DNA from: Natronogracilivirga saccharolytica
GTDB taxonomy: Bacteria > Bacteroidota > Rhodothermia > Balneolales > Natronogracilivirgulaceae
Direction of reading: 5' to 3'
Length of the DNA: 58,258 bases
Assembly: GCF_017921895.1 (NCBI RefSeq)
Contig: NZ_JAFIDN010000015.1
Location: 1 to 58,258, forward strand
Shown: positions 4,516 to 44,224 of the stretch, piece after piece
Position numbering within the stretch: the stretch's first letter is position 1
How the letters are laid out: every line of letters starts with the position of its first letter
Made by a program: the position numbers and the translations under genes
Notes under the pieces: model-generated
Told to the model about the DNA's origin: nothing
The model's input: the letters and a program-made list of their open reading frames with translations, nothing else
Database searches by the model: none

Positions 4516-4532
4516 ATAGTCAGTCCTTGTCC

Positions 4533-8668: not shown

Positions 8669-8669
8669 T

Positions 8670-10697: not shown

Positions 10698-10711
10698 GCG
10701 GCTGCATGCCC
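10619..10711 (+). repeat. Degenerate partial duplicate of wecB
   Basis: The stretch GGTTATCTCGTGATGAGGCT is near-identical to wecB at about 9641-9660. The following ATTGCCCCGGCATGTGAGCG matches wecB at about 10013-10032. The roughly 330 bp between those two points in wecB are missing here. This is a deleted, drifted second copy of the epimerase gene, adjacent to the intact one. Confidence 0.7.
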
Positions 10712-10801
10712 TGTTTTAACATTTTCTGACGATAATGTAATTGGACACAAGTGGCGGGCGTTATATCTTGCAGCGAAACTTATAATAAAGGAACAATTAC
10801 A

Positions 10802-18660: not shown

Positions 18661-18685
18661 CCGGCTTGCGAATCCACAGGCCATC

Positions 18686-18707
18686 AGGATTAATGCATTC
18701 TAACTTG
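18686..18707 (+). promoter_or_regulatory. Curlin-type promoter signature, weaker site F
   Basis: AGGATTAAT, six bases, TAACTTG (18701-18707). The -7 box matches exactly and the upstream nonamer partly (ATTAA). It lies 85 bp before the curlin start at 18792. Confidence 0.45.
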
Positions 18708-18791
18708 AACCTCTCAGCAATATGTTTTATATATATATCCGTAAATATTCATCAAACCATAAACCTGAAACACAATCACAAGACAGACATT

Positions 18792-20859: not shown

Positions 20860-23800
20860 ATGAAACAGTCGATACCATTCACCCTTATCGTATGCCTCTT
20901 ATTTATAATCAGCTCCTCAGCAACTTATGCCGGGTCTACTGACGGGATGTCCGGCAATAACAGCACGTTCGCAGGTGGTTCAGGGACAGAGGAGGATCCG
21001 TATCAGATCGAAACGGTCGAACAGCTTCAGGAAATTCAAAACTACACAGATAAACATTTTATTCAGATTGTCGATATTGATGCATCGGAGACTGAGGAGT
21101 GGAATGGTGGGAAGGGGTTTAGACCAATTGGTGATGAAGCTTTTAAGTTCTCCGGATCTTATAATGGAGGTGGTTATGCAATTACCGGTCTCCATATCGA
21201 CCGAGCTGACCAAGACTATGTTGGTCTATTTGGATACACATTGGATTCTAAAATTAGTCGAGTCAGAACTATAAATGTATATGTTGAAGGCGGCAAGCGT
21301 ACTGGCGGTCTTGTTGGTTACAATAAAGGTGTTATTACTGACTGTTATGCCCAAGGTTATGTGTCAGGTTATAATTATAGTGGTGGGCTAGTAGGTCGAA
21401 ATACGGGTACTATAAATTCATCAAATGCAGAAAGTGATGTAACAAGCAATACTTGGAACGGAGGTGGCCTTGTGGGATGGAATAGCGGTAGAGTAGTAAA
21501 TTCTTATGCAACAGGGAAGATCATCGCTGGTCGATTTTGCTCATTTGGTGGACTCGTGGGTCGACACAATGATGGGATTATAAAAGATTCTTATGCTGAC
21601 ACAGAAGTCACAAGTGATAATGAAAGAGTTGGCGGGCTAGTGGGATATAATTTTGCTACAATCACTGATTCATATGCAAAAGGAGAGGTGACTGGAGGGC
21701 AATCTGTTGGTGGATTTGTAGGTGAAAATGACAATGGCAATATTACTTATTCATATAGTAAAGCTAATGTTAAAGGCAATAACGAAGTTGGTGGTTTTCT
21801 TGGGAAAAACCGAAACTATGGGGAAGTGACCAACTCATTTAGTACTGGGATACCTTCTGGTAATGAAGATCTGGGAGGATTTGCAGGTCTTAATGCAGCA
21901 AGTATTGAATCGAGTTATTGGGATACTGAAGCCAGTGGAGCATTGAGTGGAATTGGTAGAGGTCCAACAGTAGGTGTTAAAGGATTAATTACCGATCAGA
22001 TCAAAGACATTTCTGCCTACTACTCAATGCCAGCCTTCGATTTCGAAGAAACATGGCATCTCACCGAAGATTACCCAGCCCTTCAATGGCAGGATGATGT
22101 GGAGCCGCTGACGCTGCCACCCCGCAAGGTGACGTTGGCTGCACCCGACAGCGCCGGCACCGGGCTGACCCGCGTCCCGCAACTCACCTGGAACCCCGAC
22201 GATCGTGCCGAAACCTATCGCATCCAACTCTCTGATGGTCCAGATTTTGAAACGCTTCATCTGGATGAGACGACCAGCGCGACCGAATGGACGGTTTCTG
22301 ACTCTCTGGATTTTGAGGCCACATGGCACTGGCGCGTCCGGGCCGTCAACGAAAGCGCCGAGGGTGAGTGGAGCGACTCCTGGTCGTTCACCACGGTGGT
22401 AGAGCCGGGCATGGTCGCCCTGGAAGACCCGGCCAACAGCGCCGGACATGTCAACGCACGACCCGCTTTTTCATGGGCCGGGGCGGATGGTGCGGATTAC
22501 TACGATTTTCAACTGTCTGCGGATTCATCCTTCAGCACTTTGGAAGCAGAGCTGACCGACCTTGCGGAAACATCGGTCCGGTTGGCCGACACACTCAATC
22601 CTTTGTCATCCTATTACTGGCGGGTCAGGAGCGGCAATATTGGAGGCAAGAGCGATTGGAGCGAGCCCTGGTCGTTCACAACCATTGATCTTCCGGATGA
22701 GCCGGTTCTGGTTTCACCGGCCGACAGCAGCCTTCAGCTCGATCCGCCGGTCAGCTTTGAATGGAGCGCAGCCGACCGCGCCGAAGCCTACCGCATCAGG
22801 ATCTACGCTAATGAAAGTGAACCCGAAAACCTTGTGGTCGACTCGCTTCTATCTGACACCACATTTGCATACAGCAATCTGTCCCACACCAACATATATC
22901 TTTGGGAAGTGGCCGGACAAAACAGCGCAGGCGAAGGACCATCCTCCCAATCATCGCTGTTCACGATACGTGTGCAGACTCCCTTGCTGACCTCCCCGGA
23001 ACCGGACCAGCAGAATGTGCCCCGGTATCCGCAGCTGGTCTGGGAGCCTGTCGAAGAGGCAACCACTTATCTTGTCCAATTGTCGCAGGATTCACTTTTT
23101 GAGGAAACCATTGTACAGTATGATGTTTCCGAAAACAACACTGTAGAGCCCGGGCCGCTTAAGTGGCGTTCGACTTATTACTGGCGGGCATACGCCGTAG
23201 CCGGAGAAGACACCAGTCATGCCAGTCCGGCTTCTTCGTTCACCGTTGGAGGGCCTGTCTTTACGTTTGAGCCGGAGCAGCTCGGGTTTGGAACGGTTCG
23301 GACCGGCAACAGCGCAGAACGCAGCATCAGTATCGAAAATTCGGGTACAGACAGCCTGTTCCTTGCTGATATTGCATTGCCCGATGAACGCTTGCAGATT
23401 ATGCTGCCGGACTCCATCGATCCAGATACTCAACCCGAAGGACACCACAATGGTTTGCCGGCCGGGGAGTCGTTGGAAGCCGTTGTAACGCTGGATGGCT
23501 CTTCACCGGGTCATATTGATGGTTATATGGTATTCAGCGACGGACTCGGAACGCGCGACTCACTCCGCATAACAGGGTTCGTGGGAATAGGCGAACTCGC
23601 CTTTGATACCGACACCCTTTCCTTTGCATCCACCCGGGTAGGTGAGATGACCCGCGAGGCGGTGACCCTGACTAATACGGGAAATGACACCCTGTCGGTG
23701 CAATCGGTTACGGTCAGCGACGGCACCTATGGATCAAGCCTGCGCAGCTTTACACTGGCACCGGACGAGGCCATTGTCGACTCCATCACATTTGCACCGA

Positions 23801-26115: not shown

Positions 26116-29100
26116 ATGAATCATTCCGCTTCTACTGCCTTTATTCCCGCAACCCTGCATCCCGCACCGGTTATCAAAACCGCATTTTTCCTGCTCCTGC
26201 CTCTGCTTTTCCTGTTTTCCCCGGCCGGCGCACAGCAGCTCCACCTTAACGAAGTCATGAGCGCCAATGCCACCGTCATCGCCGATGAGGACGGGGATTT
26301 TGAAAACTGGGTGGAGATCTACAACCGCGGCGACGAGCCGGTCAGCCTCGAAGGCTACGGACTTTCCGACGACCGGTTCCGGCCGTTTCGCTGGACGTTC
26401 CCCGACGTCACCATCCCCCCGGGTGACTTTCTGCTGGTCTGGGCTTCCGGAAAGGATCGCGCCAATCCCACCGGCGAGCTTCACACCAGTTTCGGCATAT
26501 CGGCCGACGGCGATGAGGTCGTACTGACCGATCCCGATACCAACCGCGTGGATCACCTTCCTCATACGGTCATTCCCGGCAATACCTCCATCGGCCGGCA
26601 GCCGGATGGCATCGGCGGCTGGGTGTTTTTCGCCGATCCGACCCCGGGCAGCGCTAATATCACCGAGGGGCTGTCCGGCAAACTCGATCCGCCGCAATTT
26701 TCCCAGCCCGGCGGCTTCCATTCCGGGCCTGTCGATCTCGAAATTTTTCATTCCGACCCCCGGGCCGCCATCCACTATACGCTCGACGGCTCCCGCCCGA
26801 CCCGCGAATCCCCGCGTTACGAGGAGCCGATCCGCCTGACCGACCGCAGCGACCAGCCTGATGTCTTTTCCACCATCCGCACCACGCCGATTACGCAAGG
26901 AGCGCGCAGATGGATGGAGCCGGCCGGCCCGGTCCGCAAAGCCAATGTGGTTCGGGCAAAGGCGTTCCGTGACGGCAGCCTGCCAACAGGACGCACCCAG
27001 ACTTATTTCGTCTTCAGCGAAGGCGCCGATGCATATGACCTGCCCGTGGTTTCCCTGGCGACCGACAGCACTCATCTCTTCGATTACGATGAGGGAATCT
27101 ATGTGCCCGGCGCGCAATATGTTGATGGTGACTATGGCACCGGGAACTACGTCGAACGCGGCATCGAATGGGAGCATCCGGCCAGTTTCGAGCTTTACGA
27201 AAAAGACGGCTCGCCCGGCCTGGAGCAGGACATCGGCATCCGCATTCACGGGGGATACACCCGCCGCTTCCCCCAGAAAAGCCTGCGGCTCTACGCCCGT
27301 GCAGGATATAACGAGAGCCGGTTCAACTACCGCATGTTCCGGGAGATGGATGACGACAGTTTCAACCGGTTCATTCTTCGCGCCTCGGGCAACGATTTCG
27401 GTTTCACCATGTTCATGGATGCCGCCGCCCAGTCGCTCATCCGCCATTTTAACGTCGACACCCAGGCCTACCGGCCGGTGATCGTTTTCATCAACGGGGA
27501 GTACTGGGGCATCCACAATGTGCGCGAGCGGTACGACCGCCGGTATCTGGAGCGGGTCTACGGCGCCGATCCCGACAACATCGACCTGCTGACCGGCCGG
27601 CAGACCGTCAAAGAAGGCGACCACATCCATTACAGTAACATGTTTGATTATATCGACCGGGAGGATCTGTCCGACCCCGCCCGCTTCGACTCGGTCAAAA
27701 CCATGATGGACATCGACAATTTTCTGGATTACTACAGCGCCAAAATTTATTACGGAAACAACGACTGGCCGCATAACAACATCGATTTCTGGCGGGCAAG
27801 GGAGCCGTACAATCCCGGCGCTCCCAAAGGGCTGGACGGACGCTGGCGATGGCTGCTGTTTGATGTGGACCGGTCGCTCGGCTACTCCACACACTATACC
27901 TTCGACATGATCGAATGGGTCACCGCAGAAAAGAGTCCGGCAATCGATCAGGAATGGCCCAACGTACTGCTGCGCAACCTCCTGGAGAATGAGGACTTCC
28001 ACATCCGGTTCATCAACCGCCTGTCCGATCATCTCAACACGGCCTTTTCCGAAGACCGGGTTCCCGAAGTGGTCGACAGCCTCCGGGCGCCGCTGGCATC
28101 CGTCATCGACGAACACATCCTGCGCTGGCAGAACCACGAGTCGCGTCACCGGTGGGACGGGCTGGTCGAAGATATGAGGGAGTACGGACGTCGGCGTCCG
28201 GCTTTCATGCGCCAACACATGAGCGATCATTTCGATATCGGCAGCGAAGCGGAGCTGACCGTGGATGTATCAGACGATTCCCGGGGATTTGTGCGCGTCA
28301 ATACGACCGATATCCGGGGCGGCGGTTCAGCGGGCACACCCGGCGTTCCGGACGATCCCTACCCGTGGACGGGCATTTACTTCAGCAAAGTCCCGGTCAC
28401 GCTCACGGCCGTTGCGTACGATGGCTACGAGTTTTCCCGGTGGTCGTGCGACGGCGGCCTGCCGGATGGTGTAAATCCCGATGAGGAAAAGATTTCGGTA
28501 TTCGCAGATCCGGAAATCTCCTGTACCGCTCATTTCACACGGGCGGAAGTCAGGGAAGAAAAGGAGCTGGTGTATTACTGGCTGTTTACGGATGATCTTC
28601 CGAACAACACGCCGCTGAAGGTGCTGGAGCCGGCTTATGTGGACGATAATGCAGCGGAAAATGCATCGGAAAATAAACCCGCCATCCGTTATCAGCCGGC
28701 CATCGATCCCTATCCGCCCGAACCAGGTGTTACAGCAGGTATTCTGGACAGGGTCAATGATCCGTCCCCGGTCAATCTGGACAGCACGGTCATGGACGAA
28801 CTGGGGTACAGCGGGGAGGACCTTCGCGGGATTCGCGCGCGCAATCCTTCACTGGTGGATGACCGGGAAAGTGCGCTGATACTGGAGCTGCCGACCACCG
28901 GTATCCATCGTCCCGTGCTTACCTTTGCCGCCATGCGGACCGGAAGCGGTCAGGAACAGATCAAAATTGAGTACAACACCGCACCCGGCGACACCGGCTG
29001 GACCAGCGAAGGGCTGGATCCATCCGTCTTCACCATGTACGAAACCTGGAAGAAGGTGACCATCCCGTTCGGGGAAATTGATCCGGACGGCAGTGGCTCC

Positions 29101-29607
29101 GGCCATGCAGAGGAACATTTTGACCATTCCGGCGGTCCCGCTGATACTGCCGGCAGCAATTCCGGATTTGCGGATGACAATCCCGGGTTCCGCGTGCGGA
29201 TTCTGTTCCGCGGCGATGAGGATGTCCGGCGTGGCGTCAGCGGGAATGTACGCTTCAACAATTTCTCGCTGCATGAATCGGTTCAGCAGACCGGTCCCGG
29301 CAACGGAAATGGCGATGACGACGATAACGGCGCTGATGTCCCCGATGAGTTTGCGCTGCTCGGCAATTATCCCAATCCGTTCAACGAGTCGACCACCATC
29401 GAGTACGCCGTACCCGAGCAGGCGGATGTCACACTGGAACTGTACGATATTATGGGCCGGCGCGTGGCCACACTGGCGGAAGGGCAGCACGAACCCGGCC
29501 GCCATCAGGTGACTCTGGATGCATCGGGGCTTTCCAGCGGCGTATACGTGTGCCGGCTTGCCGGCGGCGGGCATCAGGACACCATCGCGATTACGCTGGT
29601 GAAGTAG
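26116..29607 (+). CDS. T9SS-exported CotH-kinase-family protein with lamin-tail domain
   Basis: A 1163-residue secreted protein. The signal peptide is long (hydrophobic TAFFLLLPLLFLFSPAGA, cleavage before QQLHL). Residues about 40-150 form a lamin-tail domain (LNEVMSANATVIADEDGDFE, SLEGYGLSDD). About 190-290 is a chitobiase-C-like segment (IHYTLDGSRPT). About 300-610 is the CotH kinase-like domain (GIRIHGGYTRRFPQKSLRLY, INGEYWGIHNVRERYD, WRWLLFDVDRSLGY). About 700-815 resembles divergent InlB B-repeats (EFSRWSCDGGLP). A type A T9SS sorting domain (GNYPNPFNESTTIEYAVP ... SGVYVCRLAGG) closes it. CotH proteins of spore coats are protein kinases; whether this extracellular version phosphorylates matrix proteins is unknown. 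It stands alone between two intergenic gaps. Confidence 0.87.
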   Translation: MNHSASTAFIPATLHPAPVIKTAFFLLLPLLFLFSPAGAQQLHLNEVMSANATVIADEDGDFENWVEIYNRGDEPVSLEGYGLSDDRFRPFRWTFPDVTIPPGDFLLVWASGKDRANPTGELHTSFGISADGDEVVLTDPDTNRVDHLPHTVIPGNTSIGRQPDGIGGWVFFADPTPGSANITEGLSGKLDPPQFSQPGGFHSGPVDLEIFHSDPRAAIHYTLDGSRPTRESPRYEEPIRLTDRSDQPDVFSTIRTTPITQGARRWMEPAGPVRKANVVRAKAFRDGSLPTGRTQTYFVFSEGADAYDLPVVSLATDSTHLFDYDEGIYVPGAQYVDGDYGTGNYVERGIEWEHPASFELYEKDGSPGLEQDIGIRIHGGYTRRFPQKSLRLYARAGYNESRFNYRMFREMDDDSFNRFILRASGNDFGFTMFMDAAAQSLIRHFNVDTQAYRPVIVFINGEYWGIHNVRERYDRRYLERVYGADPDNIDLLTGRQTVKEGDHIHYSNMFDYIDREDLSDPARFDSVKTMMDIDNFLDYYSAKIYYGNNDWPHNNIDFWRAREPYNPGAPKGLDGRWRWLLFDVDRSLGYSTHYTFDMIEWVTAEKSPAIDQEWPNVLLRNLLENEDFHIRFINRLSDHLNTAFSEDRVPEVVDSLRAPLASVIDEHILRWQNHESRHRWDGLVEDMREYGRRRPAFMRQHMSDHFDIGSEAELTVDVSDDSRGFVRVNTTDIRGGGSAGTPGVPDDPYPWTGIYFSKVPVTLTAVAYDGYEFSRWSCDGGLPDGVNPDEEKISVFADPEISCTAHFTRAEVREEKELVYYWLFTDDLPNNTPLKVLEPAYVDDNAAENASENKPAIRYQPAIDPYPPEPGVTAGILDRVNDPSPVNLDSTVMDELGYSGEDLRGIRARNPSLVDDRESALILELPTTGIHRPVLTFAAMRTGSGQEQIKIEYNTAPGDTGWTSEGLDPSVFTMYETWKKVTIPFGEIDPDGSGSGHAEEHFDHSGGPADTAGSNSGFADDNPGFRVRILFRGDEDVRRGVSGNVRFNNFSLHESVQQTGPGNGNGDDDDNGADVPDEFALLGNYPNPFNESTTIEYAVPEQADVTLELYDIMGRRVATLAEGQHEPGRHQVTLDASGLSSGVYVCRLAGGGHQDTIAITLVK

Positions 29608-29989: not shown

Positions 29990-30706
29990 ATGAAGAAACT
30001 GAGTGCACTTTTCATCGCATTGCTATTCTCAGCAGGGATGACTCTGGCTCAAAGCAACGAAGCTTCCATCGAACAGGTGGGAGATGATCACGATGCAGAC
30101 GTTGAACAGAGCGGAGACTATAACGTGGCTAATGTCGACCAGGACGGAGCAGGCGGCATAGCCGACATCGATCAGTACGGTTCCTCCAATGAAGCCTTCA
30201 TTACGCAGGAAGGAGTTACAGGCGGAGAACGAACCTCAGGAAGCATCACCCAAACTGGCGGAGAAAACGAAGCCAGCATCCTTCAGGAAGAGTCCAACGT
30301 CAAATCCTCCGAGATCGTCCAGGACGGATATCGCAACGAGGCAACCGTCGAGTCTGTTGGTGGCGGACGCGCTGATGCAGCCGACATCTATCAGGAAGGC
30401 AACGACAACCAGGCCACCATCCTGCAGAGTCTGACATCCGCCTCCAGCGCCGTGATCAGTCAGTACGGCAATGACAATGAGGCGATGATCGAAAATGACG
30501 GCAGTCCGCTCGATGCCTCAATCATGCAGGAAGGCGATCTCAACGTGGCCAATATCGAAGATACCTTCGGTGCCGGTGGAAACACCGCAGACATCGGGCA
30601 GTTCGGAAACAGAAACACCGCCGATATCTTCATGGACAACAGCGATGGAACCGCTGATATCCAGCAGACCGGCGACAATAACAATGCCTCCATCAGTCAG
30701 TACTAA
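29990..30706 (+). CDS. Curlin-repeat secreted amyloid-like protein
   Basis: A 238-residue protein with signal peptide MKKLSALFIALLFSAGMTLA, then QSNEAS. It is a very regular run of 11-residue units (NEASIEQVGDDHDADVEQSG, NVANVDQDG), with Asp and Glu at the variable positions and few basic residues. It is flanked by its own promoter (site C) and terminator (30776). Of the seven curlin genes it has one of the most regular repeats and could be a major fibre subunit (inference). Confidence 0.88.
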   Translation: MKKLSALFIALLFSAGMTLAQSNEASIEQVGDDHDADVEQSGDYNVANVDQDGAGGIADIDQYGSSNEAFITQEGVTGGERTSGSITQTGGENEASILQEESNVKSSEIVQDGYRNEATVESVGGGRADAADIYQEGNDNQATILQSLTSASSAVISQYGNDNEAMIENDGSPLDASIMQEGDLNVANIEDTFGAGGNTADIGQFGNRNTADIFMDNSDGTADIQQTGDNNNASISQY

Positions 30707-30775
30707 GACGGGATGATTGATTCCTGTCTGAAAGGGAGTAAGGGATTCCGGTAAAACCGGAACCTGATCTGTTGC

Positions 30776-30813
30776 AATCCCGTCATCGCCCTGCGCGGTG
30801 CCGGGATTTTTTT
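30776..30813 (+). terminator. Rho-independent terminator
   Basis: Stem AATCCCG (30776-30782) and CGGGATT (30802-30808) enclosing a GC-rich inner part, then a T-run to 30813. Confidence 0.88.
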
Positions 30814-30911
30814 GATGGTCTCTTGACGAATGATGCTTGACAAATGAGCGTGAATGTACCCATACGTTGCTCAGATGAAGTTAAGAATAAGAGTAAAAAT
30901 ATTAAGCGAGA

Positions 30912-30933
30912 TTAATTAACATATTATAACTTG
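30912..30933 (+). promoter_or_regulatory. Curlin-type promoter signature, site D
   Basis: TTAATTAAC (30912-30920), six bases, TAACTTG (30927-30933). Identical in both halves to site A, with unrelated sequence around it. The gap 30707-31116 holds this and the terminator, and otherwise no gene. Confidence 0.65.
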
Positions 30934-31102
30934 ATCGCTTGCAAGTAAGGTGTTATTTATGCTGTCAGTAAATCACCTGAAAAATCCGGTGAAATAAACA
31001 CAGTGATTTTTGAAGTTGGATTTACGCGAGTTTGTGTTAGATGCTTGCAGATCTTTTCAGAAAGATTACCTGCATCAGACATGGATAAAAATAATAACCA
31101 AA

Positions 31103-31116
31103 AAAGGTGACCAACA
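31103..31116 (+). promoter_or_regulatory. Conserved translation-start element
   Basis: AAAGGTGACCAACA before ATG 31117, the same as before 29990. Confidence 0.65.
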
Positions 31117-32202
31117 ATGAGACAAATAACAACACTTCTTGTAATGATCCTGTTTACCGCAGGAATGTCGTTTGCACAAAGTAATGACGCCAGTGTTGAT
31201 CAGCAGGGCAGTGACAACAGCGCTGATGTCGACCAGCAGGGCTATAGTAACGTTGCAGAAGTAGATCAGTCAGGAAATGATGATGTGGCTGATATTACAC
31301 AGTCGGGAAGCAGCAACGAAGCCTTCATCGATCAGGCAGAGGGTGGCTCCGGAGCCCGTTTCTCTGACGGATCTGTCGACCAGCAAGGCGACGGCAACTA
31401 CGCCTCCCAGGATCAGACCATTCGAAGCGCACACAACACAATCACCGCAGTTATTGATCAATTGGGAAATGAAAACACGGCTACCCAGGAGCAAGAAACC
31501 AGAAGCAGTGCTCATGCCGGAATCAATCAGGAAGGCAGCTATAATGAAGCTAATCAGACTCAGAGCTTTAATTACGGTTATTCTTCCGTCAACATCGATC
31601 AGGTAGGTGATGGAAACTGGGCGGTTCAAACCCAGAACGCCGGATCATCTGAAGCTACCATCATACAAAATGGCGATGACAACCGTGCAGAGCAAACACA
31701 AAGCGGCGGAAACTATGCCGGTAACGCAGCTGATATATTGCAGTCCGGATCTGATGACCACACCCAGGTGCAGGACGGTGAAGGAAATTATGCCGAAGTC
31801 CGGGCATTTGCAGGATCAAACACCGGTGATCAGACCCAGGTTGGTAATGACAACCATATGCAGCTCAACCAGTCCGGCGGCTTCGATGCTGTAATGTCCC
31901 AGGATGGTGACGGCAACGATGCACGTCTGCGCCAGGCCGGTGGCAGCGGAAGCAGCGCTTATCTGACCCAGGATGGTGATGACAATTCCATCGGCGCCGA
32001 GCAGCAGGGAAGCGGCAATGTAATGCATGTCCTGCAGGATGGCAGTGGAAACTACGCCGGATCCGACTGGTGGGCCAACCCCGGACTGGTTCAGGATGGA
32101 AATGACAACATGATTGATCTTTCCCAGACTGGTGACAATCACTCAGCTTCGGTTCATCAGTATGGCGACAATAATACCGCCAACGTAACTCAGTCCAACT
32201 GA
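31117..32202 (+). CDS. Curlin-repeat secreted amyloid-like protein (long)
   Basis: A 361-residue protein with signal peptide MRQITTLLVMILFTAGMSFA, then QSNDAS. The N-terminal end has five uninterrupted 11-residue units (NDASVDQQGSDNSADVDQQG and so on). A central part with Q-x-Q-rich units (NTATQEQETRSS) follows. The last 150 residues (from DDHTQVQDGEGNYAEVRAFA) are shared with the next gene. WWANPGLVQDG interrupts the repeat pattern near the C-terminus in both, suggesting a conserved capping or contact element. Own promoter (site D) and terminator (32286). Confidence 0.88.
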   Translation: MRQITTLLVMILFTAGMSFAQSNDASVDQQGSDNSADVDQQGYSNVAEVDQSGNDDVADITQSGSSNEAFIDQAEGGSGARFSDGSVDQQGDGNYASQDQTIRSAHNTITAVIDQLGNENTATQEQETRSSAHAGINQEGSYNEANQTQSFNYGYSSVNIDQVGDGNWAVQTQNAGSSEATIIQNGDDNRAEQTQSGGNYAGNAADILQSGSDDHTQVQDGEGNYAEVRAFAGSNTGDQTQVGNDNHMQLNQSGGFDAVMSQDGDGNDARLRQAGGSGSSAYLTQDGDDNSIGAEQQGSGNVMHVLQDGSGNYAGSDWWANPGLVQDGNDNMIDLSQTGDNHSASVHQYGDNNTANVTQSN

Positions 32203-32285
32203 TAGGCGGCAATAAACTTCAGAGTACCGGTTTGTTTGCTGGTAATCAGTGAACACGGTACCTGATGATATAAAGGCTGGTATCC

Positions 32286-32319
32286 GGCCCGGTACATGCG
32301 ATGTGTGCCGGGCCTTTTT
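32286..32319 (+). terminator. Rho-independent terminator
   Basis: Stem GGCCCGGTACA (32286-32296) pairs with TGTGCCGGGCC (32304-32314) with one G-U pair, then five T residues. Confidence 0.9.
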
Positions 32320-32495
32320 ATTGAAAGGAAGTCATTTGAAGCAAACACTTCCTGCGAATCACAAACCTCCCGTCATGCAGCCACTCCTCTGCAAGCTTTC
32401 GGAATTACCCGGCGGCTTGGGGAAATACCCGGCCTTGCATGCCGATGTCCCGTAAAGTCATTCAGGATCAACATATTCTACATTATTAAATGATT

Positions 32496-32517
32496 TTAAT
32501 TAACATACTCTAATTTG
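32496..32517 (+). promoter_or_regulatory. Curlin-type promoter signature, site E
   Basis: TTAATTAAC (32496-32504), six bases, TAATTTG (32511-32517). Confidence 0.65.
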
Positions 32518-32711
32518 CATGTATGAAATGAGAGTGATATCTATAGTACAGATTCATATATGTTATTAATGCGTTGCAGGATAATCGAGGTCATTAATAA
32601 CATTACGTAATACATGATGTTGTTCATGGTACATGGTTAACTTTGTTCGAGGTTTGATTTTGTCCTGAAACAACATACATGACCAGTGTAATAAGAAAAG
32701 TTTAACAAAAT

Positions 32712-32724
32712 AAGGTGACCACCC
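32712..32724 (+). promoter_or_regulatory. Conserved translation-start element, variant
   Basis: AAGGTGACCACCC before ATG 32725. The first ten bases are the same as in the other four copies; the last three differ. Confidence 0.55.
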
Positions 32725-33732
32725 ATGAAAAAGTTTACCGCTTTTTTCGTTGCAATTTTGTTTACGGCCGGAGTAACGTTTGCACAGAATAATCAGGCAA
32801 CCGTATCGCAGGAAATTGACGACTCCGAAGTGGATATCGAACAGATTGGAAGCAATAACCAGGCCGACGCCTCACAGTCTCTGGGCAATGATAACATGTT
32901 TATCGACATTCTTCAGGATGGAAGCGCCAACGAAGCAGTGGTCAGTCAGCAGTACGGACAGTGGCACTGGGCCGATGTCGAGCAGGCCGGAACAGGCAAT
33001 CAGCTGAATCTGCTGCAGGATAACACCAGTACCAGAGCGGAAGTCACCCAGGAAGGCAGCGGAAACTTTGCCGATATTTTCCAGAGAAATTACCTTTTCT
33101 CCTTCGGTGATTACTCATCAAGTGTCCTGCTTCTTCAGGATGGTGATGATAATGAGGCCATGGTCAGCTCTGATGGATTCGGCAACATGGTAAACGTGGT
33201 TCAGGAAGGTGATGACAACGTCGCCAGCGCTGCTCAGGACGGTTCCTACAATGAAGCCTCCATCGAGCAGTTCTGGGCAGGCGATGACCACACACAGGTG
33301 CAGGAAGGTGACAATAACTACTCCGAAGTCCGTGCATTTGCCGGACAAAATACCGGTGAGCAGATTCAGACAGGTGACGGCAATCAGTCACAGCTCAACC
33401 AGTCAGGCGGATTTGATGCGACCATCCTCCAGGACGGAGATTACCACAATGCCCGTCTGCGTCAGGCCGGCGGCAGCGGCAGCACTGCTCTGATCAATCA
33501 GTATGGTGAAGGAAACAGCGTCGGTGCCGATCAGCAGGGAAGCGGCAATGTGCTGAACGTAACACAGGATGGCGAAGGCAACGTTGCCGGATCCAATTGG
33601 TGGAGTGATCCCGGCCTGTATCAGAACGGCAACTTCAACAGCATAGATCTGATTCAGGACGGTCAGTACAATTCGGCATCCGTTTACCAGTCAGGAGATA
33701 ATAACTCCGCAACCGTAAACCAGAGCAATTGA
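32725..33732 (+). CDS. Curlin-repeat secreted amyloid-like protein, paralogue of the upstream gene
   Basis: A 335-residue protein with signal peptide MKKFTAFFVAILFTAGVTFA, then QNNQAT. Curlin units include NQATVSQEIDDSEVDIEQIG and NEASIEQFW. From DDHTQVQEGDNNYSEVRAFA to the end it follows the preceding gene closely, including LRQAGGSGSTALINQYGEG and the WWSDPGLYQNG interruption, while the N-terminal half differs. The pair therefore shares a C-terminal half and has divergent N-terminal halves. Own promoter (site E) and terminator (33813). Confidence 0.88.
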   Translation: MKKFTAFFVAILFTAGVTFAQNNQATVSQEIDDSEVDIEQIGSNNQADASQSLGNDNMFIDILQDGSANEAVVSQQYGQWHWADVEQAGTGNQLNLLQDNTSTRAEVTQEGSGNFADIFQRNYLFSFGDYSSSVLLLQDGDDNEAMVSSDGFGNMVNVVQEGDDNVASAAQDGSYNEASIEQFWAGDDHTQVQEGDNNYSEVRAFAGQNTGEQIQTGDGNQSQLNQSGGFDATILQDGDYHNARLRQAGGSGSTALINQYGEGNSVGADQQGSGNVLNVTQDGEGNVAGSNWWSDPGLYQNGNFNSIDLIQDGQYNSASVYQSGDNNSATVNQSN

Positions 33733-34348: not shown

Positions 34349-35095
34349 ATGAAACAGTCAACACTGTATAATAATACACATACACCCGCTGTAACAAAGC
34401 CGGGAAATCCCTGCACCCGCAATGCAAACCCCAGAACGAGGGTCCGTCATTTTGTTGGTGCCAACTGGAAGGGGAGTGAGGAAAAACTTCGTTACCTCTT
34501 TGGTGCAACCAACGAAATGAGCGAATCTCTGACGCCATTCAGCCATGAAGGTATCGTCTGCTATCACAAGATCAATCACGCCCGTCACCTGAACCGGTTT
34601 CTGGCAACCGTTAACCGCTCACTTGTCGACGGCGGGACATTCATCGGGTGTGTTGAGACAGAAAAGCAGCTGAAAAGACGGATCAGAAGGGATTATTCAG
34701 CCCCGATGCAGTGGATATTCCGGATGGTTCATTACATAGTCACCTTTTTCCGTCCCGTATCAAAAATATCCAAAAAATGGTATGCCCTGACGATCAGGGA
34801 TGTCAACCGGGTTTTGCCGATCGATGAAGTCTTTGACCGCCTTCATTCAAACGGATTCGCCATATTCGATTTCGAAGAAATATCCGGCCAGACCTATTTT
34901 GCAGTCCGCAAGATTAAAGATATCGCCGGAATGCCGGCACACGCTGCGCAGTTTGCATCGCACCGATCATCCCATTCTTCGCACGCATTCGGGGATGCAA
35001 TGCAGGAACATACGTATTTCTCAGGCACCATTTGTATGGAATCTCCGGTCAGATGCCGGAAGCAATTGCAATGGCGTCCGTTTCAGAATAACTGA
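34349..35095 (+). pseudogene. N-terminal domain of a sugar-transferase-type protein, catalytic part missing
   Basis: The frame encodes 248 residues. Residues about 65-190 (GIVCYHKINHARHLNRFLAT, GGTFIGCVETEKQLKRRIRR, DVNRVLPIDEVFDRLHSNGF, YFAVRKIKD) match the methyltransferase-like N-terminal half of Bacteroidota exopolysaccharide sugar transferases. In intact relatives a WcaJ/RfbP-type prenyl-phosphate transferase domain (KR-x-x-D, then RVG-x-NG) follows. Here it is replaced by about 55 residues of Ser/His-rich sequence with no family resemblance. I read it as a truncated gene; a stand-alone regulatory domain is the alternative. The start may be GTG or ATG further in. Confidence 0.55.
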
Positions 35096-35236: not shown

Positions 35237-38128
35237 ATGAATCATTTTACGACATTTTTTACGAAAACGGGGAGAGTGGTATTCCTTATCGGCCTTTCCG
35301 TTACCCTGTTTGCATTTACCGGAACATCACAAAGCGAAGACCTGTCCGGATCAGATAAACTGAACGATATCGGAAGCCCGCAAAACACCGTATTGGCAAG
35401 CGGTGGCCAGGCATCAATGGAAGTGGTCGTGGGTCCGGATGCTTCAAGAACCACAACCGACGCCGCCAACGAGCTGGCTGACTACCTTGGCAAAATCACA
35501 GGCGGGTCATTCAGTGTCACGACCGGAAACGGATCAAGTGGCATAGCCGTCGGAACCTACAGCGATTTCCCCGGTCTTGACCTGGACGATCTTTTCGACT
35601 CCCGGAATCCGGCCCGTGGCGACGAACACCTGGTCCACTCGCACGGATCGGGCGTTTACCTGGTTGGTGCAACCGACCTTGCTTCCCAGCACGCCGTATG
35701 GACCCTCCTGTACGAACTGGGCTACCGGCAATACTTCCCGACCGAAACCTGGGAAATCATTCCCGACAAACCCGACTTGAGTGCCGACATCAGTTCATTC
35801 GAAAGTCCGGATTTTTATAATCGCAATGGACCGCGGGAAGCGGCATATACCCACAGGCAATTATGGCATGAATGGCAGGACCGCAATCGTATGACATCCT
35901 CCTTCGGTGTTGCTACTGGACATGCTTACAATTCAATCATTCGTAGGAATCAGGAAGAGTTTGATGCCAATCCACAATATACAGCAGAATCCAGCTCAAA
36001 ATTTCGTGTTTCTGAGGAAGGATTGGTAGATCTTGTAGTCCAGGATGCCGTCAATCGGATCAAAGACGATCCGGACCGAATGAGTGTCTCAATGGAGCCT
36101 TCTGATGGAGGCGGCTGGTGCGATTCACCCGAGGAGCAGGCAATGGGTTCGATCAGTGACAGAGTGGTCTATCTTGCCAATGCCGTAGCAGAAGCCATCA
36201 ACGATTTGGGTATGGGTGACAGGTATGTGGGTATTTATGCTTATAACTTGCACTCTGCTCCACCTGATATTGAAGTCCATCCCAATGTGGTTGTCAGTGT
36301 AGCTACTGCATATACACATGCAGGCTATTCTGTGGATGAATTGGTGGAAGGCTGGGGCCGGCAAGGTGCGATGATCGGTATTCGCGACTACTATGACACC
36401 TTTGTTTGGGGACAGGGAATGCCGCGCTCAGGTGTGGGTGGCAACATCCCGCGTCTGGCCGACAGACTTTCCGGATTTCATGAAAACGGAGCTCGTTTTA
36501 TGAATGCCAACTCAGTGGACTCATGGCCGGTTAATGGACCAGGGTTTTATTTGTCCTCAAGATTACTTTGGGATATGTCATTGACTGAAAACGTCGAAGA
36601 GATCATCGAAGAATTTCTTGAAAAGTCATTTGGCGAAGCCATGGAACCTATGCGTAAATTTTATGAACTGGTCGGCCGCGGTCGTTCTGTACCCCGTACT
36701 ACCAACGATGTGCTGGCGCATATGTACGAATACCTTTCTGAAGCCAGAGAAATCACTGATGACCCTGAAGTTAGAGCCCGACTTGATGAAATAGTACTTT
36801 ATACTAGATATGTAGAGCTTTATTCAAAAGTCAGTGATGCTGACTCTGACGGAGCCCGTCAAAGTGCTGCAGAAAGTACGTTTCGCCATCTCTACAGAAT
36901 GCAAAGCATCATGATGTCTCCTGTGCGTCATTTATATCATCACTTTCGGAGGTCGGATGTTTCTGTAGAAATTCCAAGAGAAGCGGATCCTGGGCGATTA
37001 CGGGTAGGTCGGGAACTGACAGATATGGAGCCCTGGAAAAGCAGCAAATTATTTACGGATGAAGAAATTGCGGAGTTTGTCAGCAATGGGCTGGAAAAAT
37101 ATGAAAAAGAGGAGCTGGATTTTGATATTGTTACCTACAGTAAGGATCTGGTACCTGCTGATTCATACCTTGACTTGCCGGAAGTGAGAACAGGCAGTTT
37201 CGGACGCGGCTTTCGTGGCGAAAAGAGTATGTTCACATGGCTACGGGCCGGGGAGCCATTGGAGCTGGATGTCCGGGGCGGAACCATATCCCATTACCAG
37301 GACAGGGGAAATGTCCGTTTTCATCTGATGTCACCCAGGGAAGCAACAACGGAAGCGGTGGATTTCGATGATAGTGTGCCGCCGGACGGGGAAACCTATC
37401 AGATAGAATTGACCTCTGAATATGATGGTTTGCATGAGCTGATGTGGAACGACGGTAGAGACCGCACATACCTGGAATGGGACGAAGGCCATCCGATGAC
37501 GGTTCGTGCCAGTTTGGACAGCCCTTTCAGTTTTCAGCGTGACTTCCGACTGTTTTTTTATGTGCCGGAAGGTACAAAAGTTGTTGGGGGATATCTGAAC
37601 CATCACTTCAATGTCACCTTCAGAGATAACAATGGAGACAAAATAGAAGGCTGGCAGAACGAAGAAGAGAGTGGATATTTCGCGTTGCCAGTCAAAGAAG
37701 GACAGGACGGCAGCCTTTGGAGAATATCAGCTGATCGCAACAGAACTTTGAGGCTGATGACCGTGCCCCCGTACCTGGCGCGCAGTGAACAGGAATTGCT
37801 GCTGCCCAAAGAACTTTTTGAGGAAGATGATACGCCGACCTCTGCCGGACAGGAAGAGCAGCCGGATACATACGAGTTGGGACAAAATTATCCAAACCCG
37901 TTCAATCCCGTGACACAGATCCGGTTTGCCGTTCCGGAGCAGTCACACGTCACACTGGAAGTGTATAATGTGCTTGGACAACGGGTGACCACGCTGTTGA
38001 ACGAAGAAAAGTCACCGGGCAGGTACGAGGTAACCTTCGACGGTGCCGGATTGTCCAGCGGGGTGTATCTGTACCGGCTTCAGACCGATACATTCATTGA
38101 AACCAAACAAATGATGCTGGTCAAGTGA
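35237..38128 (+). CDS. T9SS-exported DUF4838 glycosidase-like protein
   Basis: A 963-residue secreted protein. The signal segment VVFLIGLSVTLFAFTG is followed by an N-terminal alpha/beta domain like that of GH20 and alpha-glucuronidases (NELADYLGKITGGSF, YLVGATDLASQHAVWTLLYE). A DUF4838 core follows (DRMSVSMEPSDGGGWCD, YVGIYAYNLHSAPPDIEVHP, NANSVDSWPVNGPGFYLSSR). Residues about 632-866 are a module shared with the next gene. A type A T9SS sorting domain closes it (QNYPNPFNPVTQIRFAVP ... SGVYLYRLQTD). DUF4838 is linked to glycoside hydrolase folds, so it may trim or bind the exopolysaccharide. It lies 31 bp before the next gene, so the two are probably one operon. Confidence 0.84.
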   Translation: MNHFTTFFTKTGRVVFLIGLSVTLFAFTGTSQSEDLSGSDKLNDIGSPQNTVLASGGQASMEVVVGPDASRTTTDAANELADYLGKITGGSFSVTTGNGSSGIAVGTYSDFPGLDLDDLFDSRNPARGDEHLVHSHGSGVYLVGATDLASQHAVWTLLYELGYRQYFPTETWEIIPDKPDLSADISSFESPDFYNRNGPREAAYTHRQLWHEWQDRNRMTSSFGVATGHAYNSIIRRNQEEFDANPQYTAESSSKFRVSEEGLVDLVVQDAVNRIKDDPDRMSVSMEPSDGGGWCDSPEEQAMGSISDRVVYLANAVAEAINDLGMGDRYVGIYAYNLHSAPPDIEVHPNVVVSVATAYTHAGYSVDELVEGWGRQGAMIGIRDYYDTFVWGQGMPRSGVGGNIPRLADRLSGFHENGARFMNANSVDSWPVNGPGFYLSSRLLWDMSLTENVEEIIEEFLEKSFGEAMEPMRKFYELVGRGRSVPRTTNDVLAHMYEYLSEAREITDDPEVRARLDEIVLYTRYVELYSKVSDADSDGARQSAAESTFRHLYRMQSIMMSPVRHLYHHFRRSDVSVEIPREADPGRLRVGRELTDMEPWKSSKLFTDEEIAEFVSNGLEKYEKEELDFDIVTYSKDLVPADSYLDLPEVRTGSFGRGFRGEKSMFTWLRAGEPLELDVRGGTISHYQDRGNVRFHLMSPREATTEAVDFDDSVPPDGETYQIELTSEYDGLHELMWNDGRDRTYLEWDEGHPMTVRASLDSPFSFQRDFRLFFYVPEGTKVVGGYLNHHFNVTFRDNNGDKIEGWQNEEESGYFALPVKEGQDGSLWRISADRNRTLRLMTVPPYLARSEQELLLPKELFEEDDTPTSAGQEEQPDTYELGQNYPNPFNPVTQIRFAVPEQSHVTLEVYNVLGQRVTTLLNEEKSPGRYEVTFDGAGLSSGVYLYRLQTDTFIETKQMMLVK

Positions 38129-38159
38129 TGAATAACTCATCCTTGATGAATATCAAAAA

Positions 38160-41156
38160 ATGATAAAAATTACCCGGAGTTATTTTATGAATACGGTTAT
38201 TACTTACTGTCGGAGAGCAGTTTTATATGTGTTGTTTCCTTTTTTAATGCTGGGCCTCGCAGGGCAGTCAGCCGATGGCAGTGACTGTTTTATCGGAGGA
38301 CCTTATGTTTTGCATGTCGAACACGACAGAGCCCAAATAGTCTGGGTGACCCCGGCCGGTACCGATGCCGGCAGTGTGGCGATTGAAGCTAACGGAGGCG
38401 AAGAACAGCAGAACGTAAAAGCAGTAGTTTCTATACCACTTTTTAGGGATCGCAATTCTGAGGAGGACGAGCTGGATCATCTCAGGCATCTGTCCAAAGT
38501 AGAAGAACTGCAACCCCATACTGAGTATCACTATGAGGTGCAATGCGGGGACGGAGAGTCCACCGCCAGCGGGCGATTCAAGACGCCTCCAAAGCCGGGT
38601 GAGTCTGTACCTGTTGAATTTGTGGCTGTTGGTGATGGGCATGCTAACACCATTAATAGTTCATATATTCGCATATCAGAACCGGTTGGTGAAATTAAAC
38701 CTGACTTTGTCATTCATGCCGGGGATTTGAGAGGAGGAAGAGGTCACGACTGGAGTCGTTGGGAAGGCTACTTAAAAGTTGCCCGTCCATATCTGCAAAA
38801 CAGCATTTTTCTTCCGGTTGTGGGAGCGCATGATGTTCGACCGGCCAGAAACTTCCGATCTCTGTTTGCTTTTAATGATCCGGATGGCAATCCTGATGAT
38901 GAAGACGATGCCGGTACTTACTACACGATGCAATACGGTAATATCCTGGTGATCATTCTTGATCATGTCTATGAAATTGAGGAACAGGTGCAGTGGGTGG
39001 AAGAGGTGCTTTCACAGTCGGAAGCGGAATGGATTATTGTATCCAGCCACGAATCATGGACGAGTGTTGCTAGTCGTGGAAACTGGCTACGCAACGAATA
39101 TTATAAAGACTTTTCAAGGATATTTGAAGAACATGGTGTAGACATCGTAATCACGGCTCATGACCATATGTATGAACGAAGAATTCCCTTCGGATCCAAA
39201 GGAGTCAAACCGGTGCATTATATTACTATCAATTCAAACGGCAATAGCCGTAGTGTACGTCCGAGCCCTGTTGTAGCGGGAGGTATTGGAAAAAGAGAAC
39301 ATGTGTACACCCATTTTCGTGTGGATGGTAACCAGCTTGAGATGGATGTCATAAAATATGACGGAACGGTACTAGACCGGCTGGAGCTAATTAAAGACGA
39401 TGACGGCATGTATCAGGATGAAGTTATGGAACAGGCTGTAGACCTTGATCTTGCTCACAAACTGTCACATATATATACAGGGCAGAGCATGACAGAAGGT
39501 CTGCGATATGAACGGCGTGACATCATGGGTCAATTCAAATCGCAGGCTCCTGAAAATGGTGAGTCTGTTGTTTTGAAGCTGAATACCGGAAATGCAAGTG
39601 ATCATGAAAGAGATGTCAGCCGTTTTCCCTTAGGAAGTAAACTGATTGTTTATGAGCAAAATGACCCGTCCTCATGGCAAACCGAAAAGCAGATTATTGA
39701 GATAACCGGTGATACAACAGAGATTGAAGTGACGGCTCCGGATAATATGATACATGATGTTGAAGGATTTGATCCGCCACTGGAACTGGAAGTTAACATC
39801 CGTGTGGACGGACGTGATTTTGAACGGGCAACGATCCGTCCGACATTGACTGGCAGCGGTGAACTTGACAAAGTGAATCTTGAAGCTCCTTCATCAAACC
39901 AGTGGGTACCCGCCAAACCGGTTTTTGCTTGGGAGGAGATGCCTCAGGCGAGGGAATACCAACTCCAGGCAGGCTTACCCGATTTTGATAATGTTAAAAT
40001 TGATACCATTGTTACGGACACGCATTTTAAATATTCAAATGGTTTGGAGGAAGGGGAAGATTATGTGTGGAGAGTTCGGGCACTGAATGAATTCGAAGGG
40101 CCATGGTCAGATGAAATCCGGTTTCATGTCAACCGATCGACAGAGCAAGGCAACTTTGATCCGGTCTCATTTGGTGACAATCTGGTACCGGCAGTCGATA
40201 AAATAGAAGTACCTTCAGTGAATTTTGGAAGTACAGGAAGATTTCGTGGAGAAAACAGCATGTTCACATGGCTGGAGGCGGATGGGGTGCTACCTTTGAA
40301 GGTGAGAGGTGGAGGAATCTCTCATTTCCAGGATCGAGGTAATGTTCGAATTAATTTGATCAAAGTTGCAAATGCCGATACGGTGGACAGGGATCATAGT
40401 GTGCCGCCTGACGGTGAATTTTATGAAGTTGAGCTGGTATCACCGTCAAATGGACTTCATGAGCTGCAATGGAACGACGGAAACGACAGGACTGCATTGG
40501 AGTGGCCGGAGGGACAACCTATGTCAATCCGTGCCAGCAAAGAACATCCTTTTAGTTTTCAACGCGGTTTTCATCTTTATTTTTATGTTCCTGAAGGAAC
40601 TTCCGTCGTAGCCGGGCACCTTAGTTCACACAGTAGCGTTGATTTTTATGATGGTAGTGGCAATGAATTTACCGGATGGCAGAATACAGAAGATGGCGAA
40701 GGATCCTTTGTTATCCCTGTGCCGGAAGGTCTTGATAATACATTCTGGAGTGTCGAGGGAGAAAGAAACCGCACTTTGAGTTTATATACGGTACCACCGT
40801 ATCTGGCAAGAAGCACGGAAGAGCTGTTGTTACCGGAAGAGCTGTTTGAAACCGAAGATATTCCAACTTCATCAAGAAATGATGAAACTCCGTCCCGGAT
40901 CGAGCTGGAGCAAAATTATCCAAACCCGTTTAATCCGGAGACGATTATAAGCTTTTCACTTCCCGAGCAGGAGCATGTCACCCTGGAGGTATACAATGTG
41001 GCTGGTCAGCGCGTCATGACACTTCTTAACGAAGTAAAACCATCCGGCAGTCATGAAGTCGTGTTTGATGCCTCTGATTTATCCAGCGGTGTGTATCTGT
41101 ATCGATTGCAGACTAATGACTATGTAAAAAGCAGACAGATGCTATTGATCAAATAG
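38160..41156 (+). CDS. T9SS-exported metallophosphoesterase-like protein
   Basis: A 998-residue protein. The hydrophobic signal is VLYVLFPFLMLGLAG. An Fn3-like domain similar to purple acid phosphatase N-termini comes first (VLHVEHDRAQIVWVTPAG). The phosphoesterase domain covers about 150-370, with GDGH (Asp159, His161), HAGD (Asp189), His297 in SSHES and His334-Asp-His336 in TAHDHMYE. The usual GNHD is GAHD here (222-225), so a metal-ligand Asn is missing and activity is uncertain. Then come a jelly-roll-like segment, an Fn3 domain (about 570-655), the module shared with the upstream gene (about 671-901) and a T9SS sorting domain (QNYPNPFNPETIISFSLP). ATG 38187 is an alternative start. Confidence 0.84.
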   Translation: MIKITRSYFMNTVITYCRRAVLYVLFPFLMLGLAGQSADGSDCFIGGPYVLHVEHDRAQIVWVTPAGTDAGSVAIEANGGEEQQNVKAVVSIPLFRDRNSEEDELDHLRHLSKVEELQPHTEYHYEVQCGDGESTASGRFKTPPKPGESVPVEFVAVGDGHANTINSSYIRISEPVGEIKPDFVIHAGDLRGGRGHDWSRWEGYLKVARPYLQNSIFLPVVGAHDVRPARNFRSLFAFNDPDGNPDDEDDAGTYYTMQYGNILVIILDHVYEIEEQVQWVEEVLSQSEAEWIIVSSHESWTSVASRGNWLRNEYYKDFSRIFEEHGVDIVITAHDHMYERRIPFGSKGVKPVHYITINSNGNSRSVRPSPVVAGGIGKREHVYTHFRVDGNQLEMDVIKYDGTVLDRLELIKDDDGMYQDEVMEQAVDLDLAHKLSHIYTGQSMTEGLRYERRDIMGQFKSQAPENGESVVLKLNTGNASDHERDVSRFPLGSKLIVYEQNDPSSWQTEKQIIEITGDTTEIEVTAPDNMIHDVEGFDPPLELEVNIRVDGRDFERATIRPTLTGSGELDKVNLEAPSSNQWVPAKPVFAWEEMPQAREYQLQAGLPDFDNVKIDTIVTDTHFKYSNGLEEGEDYVWRVRALNEFEGPWSDEIRFHVNRSTEQGNFDPVSFGDNLVPAVDKIEVPSVNFGSTGRFRGENSMFTWLEADGVLPLKVRGGGISHFQDRGNVRINLIKVANADTVDRDHSVPPDGEFYEVELVSPSNGLHELQWNDGNDRTALEWPEGQPMSIRASKEHPFSFQRGFHLYFYVPEGTSVVAGHLSSHSSVDFYDGSGNEFTGWQNTEDGEGSFVIPVPEGLDNTFWSVEGERNRTLSLYTVPPYLARSTEELLLPEELFETEDIPTSSRNDETPSRIELEQNYPNPFNPETIISFSLPEQEHVTLEVYNVAGQRVMTLLNEVKPSGSHEVVFDASDLSSGVYLYRLQTNDYVKSRQMLLIK

Positions 41157-41785: not shown

Positions 41786-44224
41786 ATGGTAGACTCAGAA
41801 CCTCTCTACAACGGCAATCATTCCTCCTCAAACGGAAACGCATCCGGATCCGGGGCGCGACCGGCTACCGGTAAAGGAGCTAATCCAGGCAGCGCCATGG
41901 AGCAGGACCAGGGCAATTACATGCAGCAGAAGATCATGGCAGGACTGCTGCGCTTCAAGTGGCTCATACTGCTGGCTGCACTGGCAGGAGGTGTAGCAGC
42001 ATGGTATTACACTGAGAATATAACTCCGGAATATCTCGCTTCCGGTATGATCATCATTCATCAGGATAGTGAAGAGTCACTCTCTTCGGGCGGCGATATC
42101 ACCAGCAGATTGAACCGGTCTCTTGGTCCGGCAGGCACCAGATCCATGGATAATCACGTCCAGTTACTGAAATCACGCGTGTTTGCAGAACGCATTGCCG
42201 AAAAGCTCATGGAACAGGAAGTAATGAGCAACGGGGAAGTATTTCCGGTGCTCCTTCGTGAAATTGAGGGCAATGAACCTCTGAAGGCTGCCAAAGGGCA
42301 GGTTGTCTCGCGCCTGCGCAGCAAAGCCGATGTGAAACGTGTATCCGGATCTGACGATCTTATTGAAATCAGCTATATTTCTCATGATCCTCTTGAAGCA
42401 AAAGAGCTGGCCAATCTGTTTATGAACGAATTTGTGGAATTGACGGATGAGCGTGCGCGCTCGTCAATTCAGGCAACGCTTCAGTATCTGCAGGATGAAA
42501 TGCTTAACAAAGTTGGGGGACGTCTTGCTGACTCCGAACAGAGAATCGAAGACTTTATGCGAAGTGAACCCGGCGGACTGAATCTGGCCAGTCATACGGA
42601 CAGACTCGTCGGTCAGGTACATACCCTTGAGGAAGAAGCCGAAAGAAACCGGCTGGAACTGGAGTCCATAGAAAACCGGAAAGAACGTGCGCAGGATGAG
42701 CTCAATGAAATTGAACCGGGACTTACCGACCAGATGAAATCCGCAACCACGGCCCGGGTGCGGATGCTTCAGGAAAATATGGCCAACCTGACCATTGAAC
42801 GCATGCTGATGCTTAACAAAAACCCGTCATTGCGCACTAATGAAGATCAGGAGCCCAGACTCAAGGAAATCAACAATGAAATGGATCAGATCAGCAATGA
42901 AATTGATGAGCTGGTATCCGAAGGGCTTGATCAGACCAGGGGTTTCCTGTTTACCGAAGCGGGCGAAATGAACTCCCGTATTCTGGAACTGCAGCGTCAG
43001 ATTGCCGACCTTACCGTGGAAAGAATAAGACTGCAGTCGCTGATCAACCTGGCCGAAAAACGTATTTCCGATTATAATGAAGAACTGGATCAGCTCCCGG
43101 AAAAACAGACACGTATGGCCCGTCTGCAGCGGGAACGAGAGCGTGATGAGAGAATGTACAATGAACTGGCCGGCAGAGCATTTGAAATGGGACTCATGGA
43201 GCAGAGCACACGAGGAAGCGGGCGCATCTTTGAGGATGCCTTGCAGCCTGGCTCACCCTTCAGGCCGGATGTTCCCACGAATCTGCTTCTCGGCATACTG
43301 CTTGGAATGGGACTTGCCGTCTCCGGAGTGTTCCTGAGAGTGATGCTGGATTACCGGATAGACAGTATTGACCTGCTTAAAAAATACGGTCTGCCCGTAC
43401 TCTCGGTCATACCGGACATGAAACCGGTGATCAGGAGTCAGTTTAAAGGTCAGTCACACTACAAGGTAGTGGACAAAAAACTGTCTACACTTCTGGTGCC
43501 GCTTTATGACCCCATTTCCAACGTTTCTGAAAGCTTCCGCAGACTGTTTAACAATCTGAGGTTCAACAATCCGGACAGCAGGAACAAGCTGTTCGTATTG
43601 ACCAGCCCCGGGAAAGGGGAGGGCAAAACCACTACCATCTCCAATCTGGCAATAACCATGGGTGAAAGCGGCAACAGAGTGCTGCTGCTGGATTGTGACT
43701 TCAGAAAACCACATGTACACCGGATGTTCGGACTTGATATGGAACCGGGTATAACGGACTATCTTTTTGATGATACCCCACTGGAAGAACTAATTGTTTC
43801 GGCACAGGCTCCGGGACTGGATATACTGACATCGGGCAAGCAGACGGTGAGTCCGGACCGGGCCATCAACAGCAACAAGATGCGCCGGCTAATAGAAGAA
43901 GTCACAGATAAGTACGATTACATACTTATTGATACGGCTCCTTTCGGAATCATCTCCGATGCGGCACCACTGATCCGGATGTCGGACGGTGTCATTGCAC
44001 TTGTTCGCTTCAACAAGTCAAAAACGCCGGAGCTCGATCATCTGATTGAAAACCTGAACAGTATCAGTGCCGAGGTTGTGGGGACCGTGCTGAACGATTT
44101 CAACCCGAAAGTGGCATCCGGGTACTACACCGACAATCGCAAATATGCCTATAACGACAAAGTGTACAAATCCTACAGCAACAAGGTGAAAAAGCCGGAT
44201 AAAAAAGAGAAGGAAAATGTGTGA
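41786..44224 (+). CDS. Wzc-like polysaccharide copolymerase and tyrosine autokinase
   Basis: An 812-residue inner-membrane protein. A Gly/Ser/Asn-rich N-terminus precedes the first membrane helix (WLILLAALAGGVAAWYY) and a Wzz domain. A long coiled-coil GumC-like periplasmic part (about 250-490) and a second helix (LLLGILLGMGLAVSGVFL) follow. The BY-kinase domain has Walker A SPGKGEGKTT (about 605), Walker A' LLLDCDFRKP (about 633) and Walker B ILIDTAP (about 713). The tail is Tyr-rich (GYYTDNRKYAYNDKVYKSYS), the autophosphorylation cluster. It controls chain length and export. It is followed 75 bp later by the SLBB gene. Confidence 0.92.
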   Translation: MVDSEPLYNGNHSSSNGNASGSGARPATGKGANPGSAMEQDQGNYMQQKIMAGLLRFKWLILLAALAGGVAAWYYTENITPEYLASGMIIIHQDSEESLSSGGDITSRLNRSLGPAGTRSMDNHVQLLKSRVFAERIAEKLMEQEVMSNGEVFPVLLREIEGNEPLKAAKGQVVSRLRSKADVKRVSGSDDLIEISYISHDPLEAKELANLFMNEFVELTDERARSSIQATLQYLQDEMLNKVGGRLADSEQRIEDFMRSEPGGLNLASHTDRLVGQVHTLEEEAERNRLELESIENRKERAQDELNEIEPGLTDQMKSATTARVRMLQENMANLTIERMLMLNKNPSLRTNEDQEPRLKEINNEMDQISNEIDELVSEGLDQTRGFLFTEAGEMNSRILELQRQIADLTVERIRLQSLINLAEKRISDYNEELDQLPEKQTRMARLQRERERDERMYNELAGRAFEMGLMEQSTRGSGRIFEDALQPGSPFRPDVPTNLLLGILLGMGLAVSGVFLRVMLDYRIDSIDLLKKYGLPVLSVIPDMKPVIRSQFKGQSHYKVVDKKLSTLLVPLYDPISNVSESFRRLFNNLRFNNPDSRNKLFVLTSPGKGEGKTTTISNLAITMGESGNRVLLLDCDFRKPHVHRMFGLDMEPGITDYLFDDTPLEELIVSAQAPGLDILTSGKQTVSPDRAINSNKMRRLIEEVTDKYDYILIDTAPFGIISDAAPLIRMSDGVIALVRFNKSKTPELDHLIENLNSISAEVVGTVLNDFNPKVASGYYTDNRKYAYNDKVYKSYSNKVKKPDKKEKENV

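Follow-up and report, generated by a model that had tools for sequence, protein, structure and literature searches.

Two adjacent genes of Natronogracilivirga saccharolytica encode a DUF4838 (GH163-type) protein and a purple-acid-phosphatase-like metallophosphoesterase (MPE) protein that share a C-terminal module. The genes lie in a stretch of 58,258 nucleotides, which was analyzed as a whole and is referred to as the window (Table 1). The locus raises the question of what this module is, where it comes from and what it does on two otherwise dissimilar proteins. The module proves to be an unnamed domain family of a familiar kind, real and fairly ordinary: a shuffled accessory domain found far more often among PVC bacteria.

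BLASTP yields a single real alignment of the two proteins, in which residues 625–963 of the DUF4838 protein and residues 662–998 of the MPE protein share 60% identity (386 bits, E 1e-122). The original prediction of a homologous module in both proteins is borne out, and every motif that it quoted is found. Its coordinates were correct within a few residues; the homology begins 7–9 residues earlier and continues through a linker and the T9SS tail, so that the alignment spans ~340 amino acids. The N-terminal parts of the two proteins have no common sequence by BLASTP and, as had been proposed, contain unrelated domains, PF16126 DUF4838 (72 bits) in one and PF16656 and PF00149 in the other. The module was also correctly placed directly ahead of the sorting domain, since each copy is followed by a type A tail. 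This C-terminal sorting domain identifies both proteins as T9SS substrates (TIGR04183 scores of 41.7 and 46.5 bits with a cut-off of 23). The whole genome of the organism contains two copies of the module, both in the window.

Table 1. Positions in the window of the two module-bearing genes, their domains and the adjoining chain-length gene
Feature	Position	Strand	Evidence
DUF4838 (GH163-type) protein of 963 residues, bearing module copy 1 and a type A T9SS tail	35237..38128	+	intact ORF, domain search
PF16126 DUF4838 domain, divergent member	35735..36664	+	Pfam
Module copy 1, residues 625-866 of DUF4838 protein	37109..37834	+	BLASTP, profiles, AlphaFold model
First beta-sandwich of module copy 1 (residues 33-132 of the model), fold of generic jelly-roll/GOLD/GH115-C-like type	37202..37501	+	AlphaFold model, structure search
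Second beta-sandwich of module copy 1 (residues 133-238 of the model), boundary placed by strand pattern	37502..37819	+	AlphaFold model
T9SS type A sorting domain of DUF4838 protein (PF18962/TIGR04183)	37889..38107	+	profile match
Purple-acid-phosphatase-like MPE protein of 998 residues, bearing module copy 2 and a type A T9SS tail	38160..41156	+	intact ORF, domain search
PF16656 purple acid phosphatase N-terminal domain of MPE protein	38325..38585	+	Pfam
PF00149 metallophosphoesterase domain of MPE protein	38619..39173	+	Pfam
fn3-like stretch of MPE protein, directly ahead of module, below Pfam cut-off	40032..40121	+	
Module copy 2, residues 662-901 of MPE protein	40143..40862	+	BLASTP, profiles
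T9SS type A sorting domain of MPE protein	40917..41132	+	profile match
Wzz/BY-kinase exopolysaccharide chain-length protein, 3' of the DUF4838-MPE pair	41786..44224	+	

Module profiles were built from 8, 12 and 33 members. In agreement with the view that the module is not a named domain, Pfam-A and NCBIfam profile searches of all 33 members found no family that covers it, and the module thus defines an accessory domain family that lies outside both collections. The best stray Pfam matches are Laminin_G_3 (0.0014) and PPC (0.006), no CBM model is among the Pfam matches of the 33 members, and no PDB chain matches the module by sequence, either with single copies or with profiles. PPC (PF04151) and the ColG collagen-binding domains (5iku) resemble the module as C-terminal β-sandwiches on secreted enzymes. 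Assignment to PPC was rejected, as only 2 of the 33 members match it (best E 0.006) and the window copy does not, and 5iku aligns to the module with a Z value of 5.7 and an overall rmsd to the tandem of 15.7.

An AlphaFold2 model of the module, generated from 12 sequences (pLDDT 88, pTM 0.88), contains about 18 strands and is almost helix-free, consistent with the all-β architecture that had been anticipated. The predicted structure is readable as two β-sandwiches. Internal duplication of the two sandwiches was considered and found unsupported (hhalign E 0.04, probability 0.7%). A Foldseek search of the model returned no match at E <= 0.001. VIA-align gave a best Z value of 7.8. Its matches, which include tripeptidyl peptidase II, the GOLD domain of p24, the GH115 C-terminal domain and CBM-type sandwiches, are to generic jelly-rolls and all lie in the module's first half; the search hardly probed the second. 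Because Z values up to 7.8 may reflect just a common β arrangement, no fold family is claimed. A known jelly-roll family, which might have explained the module, was confidently matched in neither the sequence nor the structure searches.

The module is present in 6 genomes among 60 relatives searched, namely that of the window and five further members of its family; scanning a single genome for each species brought in L010 and L011 as additional carriers. The named module-bearing relatives are soda-lake MAGs; the sample codes CSSed and T3Sed were matched by us to Cock Soda Lake and Tanatar-3 (PMC6146748). Across sampled genomes of the window's phylum (395 and 296), the searches returned the window copies, a weak match (L085), another weak match in L019 (E 8e-4) and nothing else. 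The L019 match was taken as a chance match, as its sequence reads as a multicopper-oxidase-type protein.

The PVC soda-lake genome G424 contains 14 module matches, and the module occurs in 12 of 195 or 35 of 289 sampled genomes of its phylum, depending on the profile. The full-length PVC carriers are mostly DUF4838 proteins, most of which end 0–16 residues past the module without a sorting tail, and distant versions of the module end β-helix proteins in PVC bacteria. In one DUF4838 subfamily, the module is the regular C-terminal element. The description of the module as shared by two T9SS proteins holds for the sharing, but its T9SS framing is too narrow, given that the module is also found far outside T9SS proteins. 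The type A sorting domain (PF18962/TIGR04183) follows the module in Balneolales proteins, yet it is a separate domain that is absent from the PVC proteins. A shared accessory role in outer-membrane anchoring had been suggested. The position of the module immediately before the type A domain in both window proteins is compatible with such a role, or with a T9SS accessory that helps the sorting domain. Either role is nevertheless improbable, as the module is the last element, at the extreme C-terminus, in most PVC proteins and the MPE homologue of L010 has the tail without the module. Moreover, the window T9SS proteins at 20860-25776 and 26116-29607 have the tail in a genome with only two module copies.

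The Balneolales copies, whether attached to DUF4838 or to MPE, group in a single clade of the module tree (98/97). The PVC soda-lake MAG protein L017 is sister to this clade (99/97), and the two together are nested in PVC paralogues. The DUF4838 tree separates the module subfamily from 17 canonical Bacteroidota members with a support of 100, and L017 is again the sister. Because the Balneolales copies are nested among PVC copies, horizontal transfer is suggested. The simplest reading is that the Balneolales DUF4838 protein and its module were most likely acquired from a PVC donor, a direction that is read from a midpoint-rooted tree and the sampled genomes. The module would thus probably have crossed between phyla that inhabit the same kind of soda lake. 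A single clade of all MPE-borne modules is neither shown nor rejected (AU p 0.09). The L017 protein itself (4111-10974) has 2288 residues; a pair of LamG-type domains and an extended glycine-rich stretch come after its module, and a sorting tail is absent.

The DUF4838 protein passes the PF16126 cut-off with about 72–76 bits (cut-off 26.6), compared with ~390 bits for canonical Bacteroidota members. DUF4838 is annotated as GH163 (PMC9870897), and a GH163 enzyme of Bacteroides thetaiotaomicron removes the antennae of complex N-glycans through endo-activity on GlcNAc-β-1,2-Man (PMC10154615). The window protein shares the Pfam match and the conserved residues R196, W213, H229, D290, Y336, W373 and Y385 with canonical members. 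However, the CxCxxC motif that almost every canonical Bacteroidota member and the majority of PVC members have after D290 is lost, and the segment reads WC-DS-PEE (residues 290–300, window ~36104-36137). The same loss is observed in the soda-lake Balneolales members, whereas the motif is retained in the sister PVC protein L017. Canonical Bacteroidota DUF4838 (GH163) proteins have no module match and end in other sequence; the window protein belongs to a divergent subfamily. With the conserved residues kept and CxCxxC gone, glycosidase activity of the DUF4838 protein is possible. A search by sequence for a solved GH163 relative gave no more than a weak match to 6q63 (E 0.23).

The MPE protein scores above the Pfam cut-offs for PF16656 (33.3 vs 30 bits) and PF00149 (47.9 vs 21.5 bits). 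The DxH, GD and [GA]HxH motifs are present in the MPE homologues inspected, except that GD is unmatched in L010. The GNH[DE] motif, whose Asn is a usual metal ligand, reads GAHD, GSHD or GGHD in the window protein and in L003, L010, L011, L012 and L057, so that this ligand is missing; catalysis by the MPE protein is presumptive. The PVC genome with 14 module matches also encodes an MPE-module fusion, L057, that resembles the window MPE protein end to end (33% identity; E 1e-128 to the MPE profile) without the fn3 match. The L010 homologue with a tail and no module, together with the differing lengths of several MPE homologues in G002, indicates gain or loss of the module among the MPE proteins. 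In L122, the gene after the PVC MPE-module gene encodes a 1013-residue glycine-rich repeat protein (3575-6616) and is not a DUF4838 gene.

These domain partners bear on the function of the module. The unit moves among glycosidase-like, phosphatase-like and β-helix proteins, always on the C-terminal side, and therefore behaves as an accessory binding or positioning domain. It may be an accessory unit that can be transplanted to the C-terminus of secreted carbohydrate-active proteins and that most likely binds or positions polysaccharide, a reading to which we give an even chance; no binding residues or ligand were found for it. A structural element of the enzyme would also account for the constancy of the module in its DUF4838 subfamily. 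In that case the module, as a C-terminal domain with a structural role, would pack against the catalytic barrel to complete either the fold or an interface between oligomer subunits, and the MPE copy would be a by-product of recombination between neighbors. C-terminal β-sandwiches pack on the barrel in α-glucuronidase-type enzymes such as GH115. The C-terminal domain of the GH115 α-glucuronidase BtGH115A (5by3) is, like the module, an all-β sandwich after a glycosidase barrel and is among the middling structural matches, but it covers only the first half of the module (Z 6.2, rmsd 2.9, 87 residues, 10% identity), leaves the second half without a counterpart and is tied with unrelated folds. 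The fixed position of the module in the subfamily and the existence of the L010 MPE homologue without it also agree with a structural domain. However, Z values of 6–8 are within the range of chance fold likeness, and a module that also ends MPE and β-helix proteins, the PVC MPE fusion included, is hard to explain as a part fitted to one barrel. We consider a structural role quite possible, if not the probable one. A full-length model of the DUF4838 protein was discarded for judging how the module packs (pLDDT 56, pTM 0.33).

In the accessory-unit reading, the module would be native to a GH163-type, glycosidase-like subfamily of secreted DUF4838 proteins that occurs widely among PVC bacteria. 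Horizontal transfer would most likely have brought the DUF4838 protein into soda-lake Balneolales, which would then have appended a T9SS tail to the module; in several lineages, the neighboring MPE gene bears a copy too. By binding or positioning polysaccharide, the module would allow the glycosidase-like and phosphatase-like units to act on one glycan, which may be the exopolysaccharide that the adjoining cluster produces. The module family marks a DUF4838 subfamily that is numerous in PVC bacteria and is tied to metallophosphoesterases in two distant lineages, a link that hints at one common glycan. In a more specific scheme, the module would constitute a new family of glycan-binding domains, through which a phosphatase-like enzyme and a GH163-like glycosidase are both coupled to a single phosphorylated polysaccharide. 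Soda-lake Balneolales would have taken the module from PVC bacteria and used T9SS to direct the two enzymes to their own exopolysaccharide; we regard this full scheme as doubtful.

In the window as in L011, the DUF4838-MPE pair is neighbored by genes for glycosyltransferases and, on its downstream side, for a Wzz/BY-kinase; in L012 the Wzz kinase lies downstream with one gene in between. This arrangement makes exopolysaccharide the likeliest candidate ligand. The original prediction had named the polysaccharide, a plausible ligand, and as an alternative curlin fibers, which are encoded just upstream; curlin-repeat genes do lie within a few kb upstream of the pair. Proximity is the sole argument, however: none of the relatives examined has curlin genes near the module, and the module family resides mostly in PVC DUF4838 proteins. 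Binding of curlin fibers is accordingly very improbable.

Several features of these contigs were observed in addition. The L011 contig, which bears the DUF4838-MPE pair with T9SS tails and the adjoining Wzz kinase, is filed as a Limnochordia (Bacillota) MAG and is probably a misbinned Balneolales contig. In the window, several curlin-repeat proteins are encoded in a row (29990-33732), with another upstream (18579-19367), and the two further T9SS proteins are a 1638-residue GLUG/PKD protein (20860-25776) and a CotH-kinase/lamin-tail protein (26116-29607). A 248-residue ORF at 34349-35095, which we take to be like the N-terminal part of EPS sugar transferases, has family homologues in open frames of 344–407 residues that align over the first 190 residues, and it may be truncated in the window.
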